Positions 7,675 to 52,734 of a stretch of 64,000 nt of DNA are shown here, one piece after another. The stretch spans positions 372,001 through 436,000 of the forward strand of contig NZ_JACJOT010000018.1 in assembly GCF_014695715.1 (NCBI RefSeq), written 5' to 3'. The DNA comes from Microcoleus sp. FACHB-68 (GTDB lineage: Bacteria > Cyanobacteriota > Cyanobacteriia > Cyanobacteriales > Oscillatoriaceae). Every line of letters starts with the position of its first letter. The first letter of the stretch is position 1. The notes under the pieces are model-generated. The model worked only from the letters and a program-made list of their open reading frames with translations. It made no database searches and was not told the DNA's origin. Both the position numbers and the translations under genes were made by a program.

Positions 7675-8052
7675 ATCTATAACAATGCCATTACTTAAAA
7701 GGCGCTCAGTTAGGTGTGCATCTAACTTGCATTTTTCAAGTTGCCCGATAGCACCAATAAATGGCTAGCCGCAGAGAAAGAAAAACGAATTCCCACAGAT
7801 ATCGTTACCTACATTTCCCATGCTGGCAAGCAATAGAAATTAAATGCCTGACAGCTTACGCAAAAAACCAGCCGATGGCTGCGGCTGGCTGAAATTGCTG
7901 TGTTGGGAGAAGGAAAACCTGATACCAAGACGGCTCCTGCGACTGCAATAACAGAGATTGAAGGCTTGGACACGTCTGGAACCATGTGCTTTCTGTAAAT
8001 AACTGTAACATTACTGGAAAAAAGTTTGCAACATTTCTTTACATATTAGGGG

Positions 8053-8093
8053 ATGGGGCATGGGGCATGGGGCATGGGGCATGGGGCATGGGG
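8053..8093. repeat. Tandem GGGGCAT heptamers
   Basis: About six copies of a 7-nt unit (ggggcat) in a row, close to the 3' end of the M48-like gene. Related tracts occur at 21764-21804 and, on the opposite strand, at 42781-42822. Confidence 0.85.
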
Positions 8094-21655: not shown

Positions 21656-21763
21656 GGTGATTCTCCTGTCGAGTCACGCTTTTGGGAACAATATCACTTA
21701 CGCTCTCATTCTGGCGAGAGCGAGCGCAAAATTTCAAGGATTGGCTGGGATTGGGGAATGGGG

Positions 21764-21880
21764 ATTGGGCATTGGGCATTGGGCATGGGGCATGGGGCAT
21801 GGGGCAAGGCTGCGCCAACAAGAACGGTAGGGTCAAGGCTGCGCCAACAAGAACGTTAGGGGGATGGGGCATTGGGCACC
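21764..21880. repeat. GGGCATT/GGGGCAT heptamers and a 29-nt tandem duplication
   Basis: Heptamers alternate as gggcatt and ggggcat from about 21764 to 21804. Then the 29-nt unit that starts caaggctgcgccaacaagaa occurs twice (21805-21833 and 21834-21862), differing at one central base (gg/gt). A further ggggcattgggca follows. The tract lies between the Mpo1-like and hydroxylase genes. Confidence 0.8.
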
Positions 21881-37929: not shown

Positions 37930-39438
37930 ATGTTGCATCTGGAGGCAATCACCAAGCGCTTTGGCACATTCGTTGCTAACGACAACATCAGCCTTAATGT
38001 GGCTGCCGGCTCGATCCATGCTCTTTTAGGAGAAAATGGGGCGGGAAAGACAACGTTGATGAATATCCTGTGCGGTTTATACAAACCAGATTCAGGCAAG
38101 ATTTACTTACAAAATAAGCCGATACAAATCCCATCTCCAAGTGCCGCAATTGAGCTAGGGATCGGCATGATTCACCAGCACTTTATGCTAGTGCCGCAAC
38201 TGTCGGTGACGGAAAATATTATCTTAGGAAACGACTTTAGTTTTTGTCTGAATTTGCGTTCCAAACAACAAGAAATCGCTGCATTATCACAAGCTTATGG
38301 CTTAGAAGTTGACCCCAGTGCCAAGGTGGGGGATTTGCCGGTGGGAACTCAGCAACGAGTGGAAATTCTTAAGGTTCTTTACCGCAAGGCGCAATTGCTG
38401 ATTTTGGATGAACCGACGGCGGTACTGACTCCATCGGAAATCAAGTCTTTATTTAAAATTCTGCGACAACTGAAGGCGGAAGGACACACAATTATTTTTA
38501 TCACGCACAAGTTAGACGAGGTGATGAGCCTGTGCGACGATGTAACCGTATTACGACGGGGACAGGTAATTTCTACAACCGCAACGCCAGACATTACCGC
38601 TCAAAAGTTAGCCGAATTAATGGTCGGAAGAGCAGTTACTTTGCAGTTGAATAAATCTCAACCGGCAGCCGGAAAGGTGGTCTTAAATGTTGAGAATTTA
38701 AACGTTAACGATGACAGAGGTTTTACGGCTGTTCAAAATTTGTCATTTCAACTGTGTGCCGGGGAGATTTTAGGAGTTGCCGGCGTGGATGGTAACGGAC
38801 AGCGAGAGTTGGCAGACGCAGTTGCGGGATTAAGAACGGTTACAGCCGGCAAAATTCAACTGTGCGGAGAAGATGTAACGCAGGTGCCGACGCAGCGATG
38901 GCGCAAAAAATTTAAAGTCGGCTATATTCCCGAAGACCGGCAGAAAATGGGTTTGGTTTTGGGATTTAGTATTGCCAAGAATTTAATTTTAAAAACTTTT
39001 AACCGTTTGCCTTTTTGTCGCAACTTTTTTTTGCAACAAGATGCCATCCAAAATCATGCAACGGCGAGTATTCAAAACTTTGATATTCGCGTGTCTCATC
39101 CTGATGTGAAAGCCGGCCAATTATCCGGAGGAAATCAGCAAAAAATCGTGCTGGCGCGAGAACTTGCCGGGGAGCCGGTTTTAATTGTGGCGATGCAACC
39201 GACGCGAGGATTAGATGTAGGCGCAACGGAAGCGGTGCAGCAACGGTTACTAGCTGAACGCGATCGCGGTGCGGCAATTCTTTATATTTCTACAGAGTTA
39301 GAAGAAGTGATGGCAATGAGTGATCGCCTTGCGGTAATCTATGAAGGTGAGTTTGTCGAAATTTTAGACGCAGCAACTGCAACCGTTGAACAGGTGGGAT
39401 TTTTGATGGCGGGGGGTCAACTTCAACAAGCGTGCTGA
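37930..39438 (+). CDS. ABC importer ATPase, nucleoside/sugar type with two NBDs (NupA/BmpB-like)
   Basis: A 502-aa protein with two nucleotide-binding domains in tandem. The first is complete: Walker A GENGAGKTT, signature-like VGTQQRVEILK, Walker B LLILDEPTAVLT and ITHKLDEV. In the second, Walker A is degenerate (GVDGNGQRE), but the signature LSGGNQQKIVLARE and MQPTRGLDVGA are present. This asymmetry is normal for RbsA/NupA-type ATPases. Together with the BMP lipoprotein and the permeases at 40538 and 41792 it completes an importer. Confidence 0.92.
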   Translation: MLHLEAITKRFGTFVANDNISLNVAAGSIHALLGENGAGKTTLMNILCGLYKPDSGKIYLQNKPIQIPSPSAAIELGIGMIHQHFMLVPQLSVTENIILGNDFSFCLNLRSKQQEIAALSQAYGLEVDPSAKVGDLPVGTQQRVEILKVLYRKAQLLILDEPTAVLTPSEIKSLFKILRQLKAEGHTIIFITHKLDEVMSLCDDVTVLRRGQVISTTATPDITAQKLAELMVGRAVTLQLNKSQPAAGKVVLNVENLNVNDDRGFTAVQNLSFQLCAGEILGVAGVDGNGQRELADAVAGLRTVTAGKIQLCGEDVTQVPTQRWRKKFKVGYIPEDRQKMGLVLGFSIAKNLILKTFNRLPFCRNFFLQQDAIQNHATASIQNFDIRVSHPDVKAGQLSGGNQQKIVLARELAGEPVLIVAMQPTRGLDVGATEAVQQRLLAERDRGAAILYISTELEEVMAMSDRLAVIYEGEFVEILDAATATVEQVGFLMAGGQLQQAC

Positions 39439-42736: not shown

Positions 42737-42780
42737 TAATTGTCTGTATTCCCAACAAAAATCCCCAAACTTTCCCCTCG

Positions 42781-42822
42781 CCCCATGCCCCATGCCCCAT
42801 GCCCCATGCCCCATGCCCCATC
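42781..42822. repeat. Tandem CCCCATG heptamers
   Basis: Six units of ccccatg, the complement of the ggggcat unit at 8053 and 21764. It separates the permease gene from the dxs leader. Confidence 0.85.
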
Positions 42823-49035: not shown

Positions 49036-50091
49036 ATGATGAACACACAGACCGTAACGCAATTGCCCATACCGCCTCACTTTGACAGCACAAAAGTGGG
49101 GCAAGTGTGCCGAGTTCCCTACCAAGAAAGAGCATCACAGGCGAAGGTATGGGCCGAGTTACACGGCATTCAACCGGCTGCCAAAGATAAAACCCGCATT
49201 TGTTTAATGGCAATAGACGTGCAGAACACATTCTGCATTCCAGAATTTGAATTGTTCGTTGCCGGCAAATCTGGAACGGCGGCAGTTGATGACAATGTGC
49301 GGCTGTGCGAGTTTATTTACCGGAATTTAGGCGTAATTACTGCTATCGCGCCAACGATGGACACGCACACGGCGATGCAGATTTTCCATCCCGTATTTTG
49401 GATTAATGATGCCGGGGAATACCCCCTCCCAGCAGCCACAATTTTAACGCTAGAAGATGTTGAAAAAGGTGTTTGGAAAGTTAACCCAGCCGTTGCAGAT
49501 AGTATTGCCGGCGGCAATTACCAAACGCTACAAAAACACGCCCTGCACTATGTCCAACAGCTTAGTGATGCCGGCAAGTATCCGTTGACAATTTGGCCCT
49601 ATCATTCCATGCTGGGCGGTATCGGTCATGCGCTGGTTTCAGCATTTGAGGAAGCGATATTTTTTCACAATCTCGCTCGATACAGTCAAACTCGTTTTGA
49701 AATTAAAGGCGACAATCCTTTAACTGAGAATTATTCAGTGTTGCAGGCTGAAGTTTTAGCGGGATCAGACGGACAACCCATTGCTAAAAAGAATACCGGC
49801 TTAATTCAAAAACTGCTGGAATTTGATGCAGTTATTATTGCCGGCCAAGCCAAAAGTCACTGCGTTGCTTGGACAATTTATGATTTACTCAGCGAGATTC
49901 AAGCGAAAGATCCTAACCTGGCAAAAAAGGTGTATTTGCTCGAAGATTGCACCTCACCAGTCGTTGTTCCTGACGTGATAGACTGCACCGATCAAGCGGA
50001 TGAAGCCTTTCGCCGGTTCGCGAGTGCCGGTATGCATCTGGTTAAATCTAGCGATCCCATCGATACTTGGCCAGATATTCAGTTACAGTGA
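49036..50091 (+). CDS. Isochorismatase-family cysteine hydrolase
   Basis: A 351-aa protein, longer than the usual 180-220. The catalytic Asp is in ICLMAIDVQNTFCIPEFEL (about residue 60), and the nucleophile Cys in VIIAGQAKSHCVAWTIYDLL (about 277). A long insertion between them (DAGKYPLTIWPYHSMLGGIGHALVSAFEEAIFFHNLARYS) is typical of the larger nicotinamidase-like proteins. The substrate could be an amide or hydroxamate of nicotinamide type, but this is inference. It converges with the GNAT gene 30 bp away. Confidence 0.85.
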   Translation: MMNTQTVTQLPIPPHFDSTKVGQVCRVPYQERASQAKVWAELHGIQPAAKDKTRICLMAIDVQNTFCIPEFELFVAGKSGTAAVDDNVRLCEFIYRNLGVITAIAPTMDTHTAMQIFHPVFWINDAGEYPLPAATILTLEDVEKGVWKVNPAVADSIAGGNYQTLQKHALHYVQQLSDAGKYPLTIWPYHSMLGGIGHALVSAFEEAIFFHNLARYSQTRFEIKGDNPLTENYSVLQAEVLAGSDGQPIAKKNTGLIQKLLEFDAVIIAGQAKSHCVAWTIYDLLSEIQAKDPNLAKKVYLLEDCTSPVVVPDVIDCTDQADEAFRRFASAGMHLVKSSDPIDTWPDIQLQ

Positions 50092-50793: not shown

Positions 50794-51075
50794 TTACAGC
50801 ACACCTTCTTCTAACTGCTCTAAATAAATAAATTCTGGAGCCTTAACACCAGCCTGCTTTCTGATTTCAACCAATTGAGGAGACTCAAAGAATGCTTTAG
50901 CATTAGCAAGTGATCTCCATTTAGAAAAGTGGACAATCTTATTGGAGTTGTTTTCGTATTTTAAAACATGATAACTCTGCTCTCCTGCATCTTTTCTAAT
51001 TGATGCAGCATCATCAAAGATTTTTTTCCATGCATCGTAGTCTTTAACTTCATGAATTATTAACACGTATTCCAT
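50794..51075 (-). CDS. ABM-domain (antibiotic biosynthesis monooxygenase-like) protein
   Basis: A 93-aa ferredoxin-like-fold protein: MEYVLIIHEVKDYDAWKKIFDDA, then HVLKYENNSNKIVHFSKWRSLANAKAFFESPQLVEIRKQAGV. It differs clearly from the other ABM protein at 70-369. AAGGGAG lies 5 nt before the ATG at 51075. It may be a small oxidase or a stress-related dimeric protein; nothing near it narrows this. Confidence 0.75.
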   Translation of the reverse strand: MEYVLIIHEVKDYDAWKKIFDDAASIRKDAGEQSYHVLKYENNSNKIVHFSKWRSLANAKAFFESPQLVEIRKQAGVKAPEFIYLEQLEEGVL

Positions 51076-51105
51076 TCCGGCTCCCTTCTTGAGCAAAAAA
51101 CACAA

Positions 51106-51431: not shown

Positions 51432-51464
51432 TTCCGGATCTCAAACCGCAATTAAGAATACAGC

Positions 51465-52240
51465 TAATAGATGCACCCTGATTGATGGCTCCCTGGCACT
51501 TCGCCAGGGGCTTTTTTTTTGCTCGATAATCTTCCGGATACACCCGGCTACTAAAAGAATACTAATAATAGATGCACCCTGATTAATGGCTCTCTGGCAC
51601 TTCGCCAGGGGCTTTTTTTTTGGTCAATAATCTTCCGGATGCGCCTAGGTGGCAGGGGAATACCAATAATAGATGCACCCTGATTGATGGCTCTCTGGCA
51701 ACTTTGCCAGAGGCTTTTTTTTTGCTCGATAATCTTCCGGATGCGCCTAGGTGGCAGGGGAATATCAATAATAGATGCACCCTGATTAATGGCTCTCTGG
51801 CACTTCGCCAGGGGCTTTTTTTTTGCTCGATAATCTTCCGGATACACCCTGCTACACAAGGAATACTAATAATAGATGCACCCTGATTAATGGCTCTCTG
51901 GCACTTCGCCAGGGGCTTTTTTTTTGCTCGATAATCTTCCGGATGCGCCTAGGTGGCAGGGGAATACCAATAATAGATGCACCCTGATTGATAGCTCTCT
52001 GGCACTTCGCTAGGGGCTTTTTTTTTGCTCGATAATCTTCCGGATGCGCCTAGGTGGCAGGGGAATATCAATAATAGATGCACCCTGATTGATAGCTCTC
52101 TGGCAACTTCGCCAGGGGCTTTTTTTTTGCTTGATAATCTCCCGGATGCGCCTAGGTGGCAGGAGAATATCAATAATAGATGCACCCTGATTGATGTTTT
52201 CTGTTCATCCTCTGGCCTAACCGTCAGGGGATTTTTTTTT
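51465..52240 (+). ncRNA. Candidate multicopy small RNA, eight copies
   Basis: In each repeat the core taatagatgcaccctgatt leads into g/aatggctctctggcacttcgcc-type sequence. CTGGC pairs with GCCAG (extended by flanking C/T-G pairs), and the stem is followed by G/C then a run of about nine T. This is the form of an intrinsic terminator on the plus strand only. In copy 8 the stem changes sequence but remains paired and keeps its T-run, which suggests selection for the structure. TAATAG or the AATAAT overlapping it could be a -10 element, giving RNAs of about 45-60 nt; alternatively GATAAT before each unit would give about 95 nt. No -35 is obvious. Transcription is inferred, not shown. Confidence 0.6.
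51491..51520 (+). terminator. Terminator hairpin of array unit 1 (type example)
   Basis: ccctggc-acttc-gccaggg is a 7-bp stem with a 5-nt loop, followed by gc and nine T. Equivalent hairpins end the other units, with T-runs finishing near 51621, 51723, 51824, 51925, 52026, 52128 and 52240. Confidence 0.8.
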
Positions 52241-52281
52241 GTTACTTCTTATAATAGATGCTTTTACTCTGAATAGAAAAC

Positions 52282-52734
52282 TCAAGTTTGTTGTTCGCAC
52301 TCCCGTTTTGTGACTTTGTGCCGGTAGGAAAACATATCCTTGATCCGCAGATCCACCCACCAGCCGAGAACGAGTTCAGCAAGTCCTCCTCCTGGTAACT
52401 CGAAGTCGATGGCATCCGTCAATCTGGTTTTTCCATTTTCCTCAATAAAATGATGCCGGTGAGTCCAACTTTCCATTGGGCCTTCAATTTGCCGGTCGGT
52501 GAAAAGCCGGTTTTTTTCGCATTCCGTATGACGAGCAACCCAGCGCACGGGAATTGGCCCTAACCAAAGGCGGAATTCAGAAATAGCACCCACATCTAAA
52601 CCGCCTTCGCGACGGATGATTTGAACCGGCTGCCAGGGAGGAGTGAGAAGTTGGAGAATATCGGGTCTTTCGTGAAAGCTCCAGACTACTTCTACCGGCG
52701 CATCAATCAGTGAGGAATGTTTGAAGTGTAGCAT
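52282..52734 (-). CDS. SRPBCC (START-like) family protein
   Basis: A 150-aa protein with the pattern of the SRPBCC ligand-binding fold: FKHSSLIDAPVEVVWSFHERPDILQLLTPPW, GAISEFRLWLGPIPVRWVARHTE, MESWTHRHHFIEENGKTRLTDAIDFELPGG. Such cyanobacterial proteins are often annotated as cyclase/dehydrase-like. They bind hydrophobic ligands in a deep cavity; ligand unknown. It may be cotranscribed with the upstream CPXCG gene (65 bp). Confidence 0.82.
   Translation of the reverse strand: MLHFKHSSLIDAPVEVVWSFHERPDILQLLTPPWQPVQIIRREGGLDVGAISEFRLWLGPIPVRWVARHTECEKNRLFTDRQIEGPMESWTHRHHFIEENGKTRLTDAIDFELPGGGLAELVLGWWVDLRIKDMFSYRHKVTKRECEQQT

Follow-up and report, generated by a model that had tools for sequence, protein, structure and literature searches.

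The window analysed here is a stretch of 64,000 nucleotides from the genome of Microcoleus sp. FACHB-68, and the feature under study is a tandem array on its plus strand, at positions 51433–52242, made up of eight head-to-tail units that each carry, from 5′ to 3′, a TCCGGA or CCCGGA box, a core, a hairpin and a T-run. On the plus strand AGATGCACCCT occurs eight times, from 51469 to 52178, and on the minus strand it does not occur; the 19-nt core TAATAGATGCACCCTGATT is invariant in all eight units, and the unit spacings along the array are 101, 101, 102, 101, 101, 101 and 102 bp (Tandem Repeats Finder gives a period of 101 with 7.2 copies, 90% matches and a score of 1164, and a period of 304 too). 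The box, a feature missed in an earlier sequence-only reading of this DNA, begins 36–37 nt 5′ of AGATG and is TCCGGA in seven units and CCCGGA in unit 8; no chance match to box plus core was found in 100 shuffles. We scored the units with the Rfam covariance model for the small RNA NsiR1 (RF02399, gathering score 39 bits). Unit 1 (51433–51520) has its box at 51433–51438 and an RNA from about 51465 to 51520 (42.0 bits); unit 2 (51533–51621) has its box at 51533–51538 and an RNA from about 51566 to 51621 (39.6 bits); unit 3 (51634–51723) its box at 51634–51639 and an RNA from about 51667 to 51723 (43.1 bits); unit 4 (51736–51824) its box at 51736–51741 and an RNA from about 51769 to 51824 (39.6 bits); unit 5 (51837–51925) its box at 51837–51842 and an RNA from about 51870 to 51925 (39.6 bits); unit 6 (51938–52026) its box at 51938–51943 and an RNA from about 51971 to 52026 (41.3 bits); and unit 7 (52039–52128) its box at 52039–52044 and an RNA from about 52072 to 52128 (41.9 bits). 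Unit 8 (52141–52242) has CCCGGA at 52141–52146, placed by offset, and an RNA from about 52174 to 52242 with a different stem of its own; its 32.3 bits is the only score below the gathering score, the other seven lying between 39.6 and 43.1 bits. Two minus-strand genes flank the array, one for an ABM-domain protein (50794–51105, Pfam PF03992) and one, convergent with the array, for a polyketide-cyclase-like protein (52282–52734, Pfam PF03364), and both are syntenic in two related genomes, G047 and G069. Elsewhere in the window, a 351-aa protein encoded at 49036–50091, which we take to be a cysteine hydrolase, gave no Pfam or NCBIfam match at E 0.001, and Tandem Repeats Finder reports heptanucleotide tandem repeats, a common short-repeat type in cyanobacteria, at 8049–8093, 21752–21806 and 42780–42821.

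A repeat protein was considered and rejected. The ORFs that cross the array measure 65 to 102 aa and start with TTG or GTG, and two of them, of 88 and 83 aa, lie on the plus strand, start with TTG and cover parts of it, but these are not taken for genes because the 101–102 bp period shifts the frame. Eight terminator-like stems, one per unit, were found on the plus strand against a shuffle mean of 1.1, and the combination of a conserved 5′ core with a terminator stem and T-run is present in 8/8 units. Folding z-scores of single units are only −1.1 to −2.6, so covariation is the better evidence for the stem: in 28 aligned copies (six from the window) compensatory changes are seen at six of the seven predicted pairs. 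In unit 8 the stem sequence differs and the pairing is intact. Thus the eight-unit plus-strand array with invariant core, stem-loop and T-run described in the sequence-only reading is confirmed, with a spacing of 101–102 bp, as is the altered yet still paired stem of copy 8, which folds as described and recurs at the end of the array in two sister genomes. The proposal that the units encode a small RNA in multiple copies, each with its own terminator, is likewise backed by the anatomy, the Rfam family match, the covariation and the conservation in sister species. Where that reading called the RNA similar to NsiR1 but ‘unrelated or distant’ it was too weak, because the gathering score is passed by seven of the eight units and further NsiR1 copies lie beside hetF in this genome, as they do in Nostoc. 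By the family model and the anatomy, the RNA of the array is NsiR1, a cyanobacterial regulatory RNA described chiefly from nitrogen-fixing heterocysts, and the array is an addition to the known NsiR1 family; unit 8 is assigned as a diverged NsiR1 copy, retained in two sister species. In its make-up each unit resembles a complete small gene, having a DIF1-type −35 promoter box, an unpaired seed and a terminator, and its 5′ core is conserved across cyanobacterial families.

The same design is described for NsiR1 of Nostoc/Anabaena sp. PCC 7120, where tandem copies each have a DIF1 promoter and a terminator and the RNA is about 60 nt, and divergent outer units with central ones that are alike are common to the Nostoc array and the present one (PMC9045159, in its available text). 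The Nostoc array differs in that its 12 copies, which heterocysts express, sit upstream of hetF and divergent to it, a position typical of Nostoc that does not belong to the Rfam model, whereas the window array lies elsewhere, in a genome in which no nifH was found; a further difference is the occurrence of NsiR1 copies with a HetR box in the window genome. Other multicopy bacterial small RNAs likewise come in several similar copies that act jointly or split their targets, and none is placed in the HetR circuit in the available text of PMC9045159; the likeness is one of description.

The genome of Microcoleus sp. FACHB-68 (G000; 6.53 Mb, 99.92% complete) holds 16 NsiR1 copies at four loci, namely the window array with eight, three beside hetF, one on contig 17 and four on contig 13. 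Eleven have a DIF1 box and five, on contigs 13 and 17, have the HetR-site palindrome in its place; the HetR site GGGN5CCC was not found in the −35 zone of any of the eight window copies. The window array is not at hetF, whereas the three copies just mentioned are, and the hetF-like CHAT-domain gene beside them matches the HetF model NF045509 at full length with 942 bits (below the cut-off of 1200). One hetR was found (NF009718, 573 bits; locus L042, 1204–2238, minus strand), and directly upstream of it lies patX (L042, 2745–2927, minus strand), encoding 60 aa with an RGSGR motif (NF047413, 35.4 bits, cut-off 30) and preceded by TCCGGA about 56 nt upstream. No gene for the nitrogenase iron protein, nifH, was found in this genome, the best match reaching 220.9 bits where the cut-off is 394.35, and fitting the protochlorophyllide-reductase family at 485 bits; it should be noted that the absence of nitrogenase is judged here from the nifH search. 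Since no nifH was found, expression of NsiR1 restricted to heterocysts is unlikely in this organism. Elhai and Khudyakov (2018) are said to have found that PatX, with DIF1 upstream, accompanies HetR in filaments whether or not they form heterocysts. The PatX–HetR module as described in the accessible parts of PMC11298460 and PMC7761841 offers a close parallel in that it is present with HetR in both kinds of filament, with DIF1 upstream, the difference being that PatX regulates HetR as a peptide and NsiR1 is an RNA output.

Between the same flanking genes (proteins 86–98% identical) G047 and G069 carry arrays of four and nine units, so that the unit number at this site in three related species is 4, 8 and 9; the earlier idea of copy-number dosage is plausible. 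First units best match first units across species (identity 0.94–0.97, with 97% between window unit 1 and its counterpart in G069) and last units, with the odd stem, best match last units (0.89–0.99), while the middle units differ in number among the species and resemble one another to about the same degree within and between them. All 13 sister units keep the T-run and a box within one mismatch of TCCGGA, although the exact box is present in only three of the nine units of G069 (the others have one change) and three of the four of G047, and in one G069 unit the core is changed. Loss of the stem and T-run in homologous arrays, named beforehand as evidence against a small RNA, was not seen in these two arrays, whose 13 units were read by eye.

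The wider distribution was examined in 388 genomes of the order, where an NsiR1 match was found in 280 at E 0.001 and in 256 at 1e-5 (the level called ‘strong’ here, 256 being also the count above the family cut-off), HetR in 236 and NifH in 155. Strong NsiR1 and HetR occur together in 234 genomes, NsiR1 only in 22, HetR only in two and neither in 130, and at E 0.001 all 236 HetR genomes have some NsiR1 match. NifH, in contrast, is present in 103/256 genomes with strong NsiR1 and 52/132 others (odds ratio 1.04, P 0.91), which is no association, and such P values overstate independence because the genomes are related. Across the sampled genomes NsiR1 tracks HetR, not nifH. In a phylum sample (n = 214, partly overlapping that of the order; lists compared by eye) 51 of 51 NsiR1-positive genomes are among the 53 that are HetR-positive, eight of this set falling outside the order, and in each of the two HetR-positive exceptions (G029 and G053) there is a weak copy that carries a GGGN5CCC box. 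Weak matches can be due to chance, because an E. coli control matches the NsiR1 model at E 0.001, below the cut-off; at 1e-5 none of the 14 controls gives a match. Strong NsiR1 in the absence of any HetR match was seen in 10 genomes of family f31, six of f18-g43 and six others (G008, G144, G198, G257, G295 and G363, three of them less than 90% complete), and the tie between NsiR1 and HetR is not absolute because NsiR1 persists in the HetR-negative families f31 and f18-g43. For Limnospira, a cyanobacterium that does not form heterocysts, an NsiR1-like RNA has already been published (PMC8400943), and the map of RNA homologues over 89 genomes in Figure 2 of PMC4734099 may show NsiR1 outside heterocyst formers. 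Neither the HetR-wide distribution nor the HetR-site promoter class is stated in the available text of any paper among the matches listed, and the founding NsiR1 and PatX papers may say part of it.

The distribution bears on whether the array does anything at present. It could have been left over from a heterocyst-forming ancestor and have no present function, as the lack of a detectable nifH in G000, the drift of unit number among the sisters and the loss of the exact box in 6/9 units of G069 and 1/4 of G047 would allow, but the box (to within one mismatch) and T-run are retained in 13/13 sister units, and strong NsiR1 and HetR without nifH are found in 131 of the 388 genomes. As heterocyst formers are described as one monophyletic group (PMC11298460, available text), so wide a spread of NsiR1 is hard to explain as relics, and we regard this origin as quite improbable. 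With eight near-identical boxes and seeds lying within 0.8 kb, the array might instead act mainly as bait, either as DNA whose DIF1 boxes bind the DIF1 regulator or as RNA that soaks up a partner. The terminators and the stem pairing are conserved, however, and a DNA decoy needs neither; NsiR1 of Nostoc is, moreover, a demonstrated trans-acting repressor in the portion of PMC9045159 available, and a role as bait is highly improbable. That the array encodes a separate small RNA resembling NsiR1 through chance or convergence is extremely improbable, for although its passing units score near the gathering score (39.6–43.1 bits, against 70–78 bits for the best copies of family f33), they have the core, box spacing and terminator design of NsiR1, with graded intermediates that include hetF-linked copies of 54.6 and 58.5 bits in the same genome.

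Promoters were scored for 385 copies from 81 genomes, taken as cores with up to one mismatch and a downstream T-run, a rule that may admit a few non-genes, at loci biased to strong matches. Among the 342 copies of 57 HetR-positive genomes the −35 zone holds a DIF1-like box (up to one mismatch to TCCGGA) in 292, GGGN5CCC in 34 (five of them in G000), neither in 16 and both in none, against a background at 39,217 random positions of 4.9% for DIF1-like boxes and 0.46% for GGGN5CCC. The two promoter classes suggest two routes from HetR to NsiR1. Exact TCCGGA is present in 197 of these 342 copies and in 1/30 copies of families f31 and f18-g43, a comparison that counts related genomes as independent and in which the 30 include at least one probable non-NsiR1 (G073:C186:14240); slightly wider position limits give 205 exact boxes and 34 HetR boxes, and narrower ones 197 and 31. 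We had expected DIF1 to be totally absent from HetR-negative genomes, and at one mismatch this was wrong (38 of 43 copies are DIF1-like). The loci of f31 and f18-g43 at which exact TCCGGA is nearly lost and NsiR1 is kept are L084, L090, L204, L205, L207, L208, L210–L212, L214, L215 and L217–L221. HetR-negative genomes of family f8 have single NsiR1-core RNAs with neither a DIF1 nor a HetR box (L093, L222 and L225, with 36.6, 39.4 and 30.5 bits, only L222 passing the gathering score), which may represent an earlier form of the RNA. Genome G065 (L184–L202) has 22 scattered NsiR1 matches, of which 20 copies were scored, 13 as DIF1-like and seven as HetR boxes. By the rules used, copies in G087, G104 and G136 (L169, L170, L172, L173 and L180) have neither box, and several of these show, by eye, wider-spaced GGGGTGT...ACCCC-like palindromes in the same zone; G104 has a nifH match. 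No NtcA site (GTAN8TAC) was found in the 90 nt upstream of a set of NsiR1 copies other than the window array.

How the RNA might act is suggested by its 5′ end. Among 285 distinct RNA bodies the 14 nt at the 5′ end hardly vary, changes setting in at position 15, and in 81% of the bodies at least 12 of these 14 nt are unpaired in the predicted fold. Because bodies were admitted with up to one mismatch in their first 12 nt, the fixation of those positions is partly built in, which does not apply to positions 13–14 or to the drop at 15. NsiR1 of Nostoc depends on HetR, acts as an antisense inhibitor of hetF translation and also represses alr3234, a hetP-like gene (PMC9045159, available text); alr3234 has been tested with reporters in E. 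coli. In an Anabaena promoter-fusion experiment, as given in the accessible part of PMC8406250, disabling the last nsiR1 copy changed hetF-gfp little. Computed as a simple duplex, with accessibility ignored and single-base shuffles as control, the RNAs of window units 1–7 pair with the strand upstream of hetF at −61 to −69 kcal/mol and that of unit 8 at −49.4, the shuffle means being −33.5 to −35.8 and the lowest shuffle −48.0, so that unit 8 is barely beyond the best shuffle. The paired region starts at a distance of about 376 nt from the position taken as the ORF start, and the pairing is partly trivial because an NsiR1 paralogue lies opposite that region. Sites for the 12-nt seed complement with one mismatch number 20, 24 and 20 in G000, G047 and G069, against 4, 6 and 6 for the reversed pattern, a control that differs in composition from the seed complement; 20 of the 21 non-NsiR1 sites in the own genome were read (C18:458962 was left out) and none is claimed as a target. 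One exact seed complement that is not an NsiR1 copy lies on contig 17 at 120860–120871 (L138:1501–1512, L144:601–612), roughly 215–230 nt upstream of an ADP-ribosylglycohydrolase gene, and about 60 nt from this site onward are identical in three related genomes; it is possibly a target or a small RNA.

From sequence we infer the expression, HetR dependence and targets of the window array as follows. Each unit would be transcribed separately once the HetR/HetZ circuit turns on in a cell, the copies summing to a strong pulse of roughly 55-nt RNA in HetR-active cells, and the copies with a HetR box at other loci would bring in direct control by HetR. The single-stranded 5′ seed would then pair with mRNAs and lower their translation, the hetF leader being the first candidate target because in this genome, as in Nostoc, the region upstream of hetF has an NsiR1 copy on the opposite strand. 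Taken as a whole, we consider it very probable that the array is a paralogous NsiR1 locus unlinked to hetF, in a filamentous cyanobacterium whose genome yielded no nitrogenase iron protein, giving a HetR/HetZ-driven pulse of RNA that represses mRNAs.

The role of hetR and patX in species without heterocysts is called a mystery in PMC11298460, and necridia and filament breakage have been conjectured by one group for HetR in heterocyst-less filaments (PMC7761841), both in the text available. For Leptolyngbya BL0902, hetR deletions have been made and studied by RNA-seq (PMC11298460). A broader proposal, tentative though a serious possibility, is that NsiR1 would be not a heterocyst RNA but an ancient small-RNA output of the HetR circuit in filamentous cyanobacteria, with two exclusive promoter classes, DIF1 (the HetZ tier) and the HetR site (direct), and that without nitrogenase its paralogues may mark and help to set a HetR-defined cell state, for example in cells destined for patterned filament breakage. 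The published view that NsiR1 siblings have different targets is extended here to siblings with different promoters, and the presence of NsiR1 is no safe evidence of heterocysts. Being in nearly every sampled HetR genome, NsiR1 would serve as a reporter of the cells in which HetR acts, and its wider pattern makes the role of HetR in filaments without heterocysts testable.
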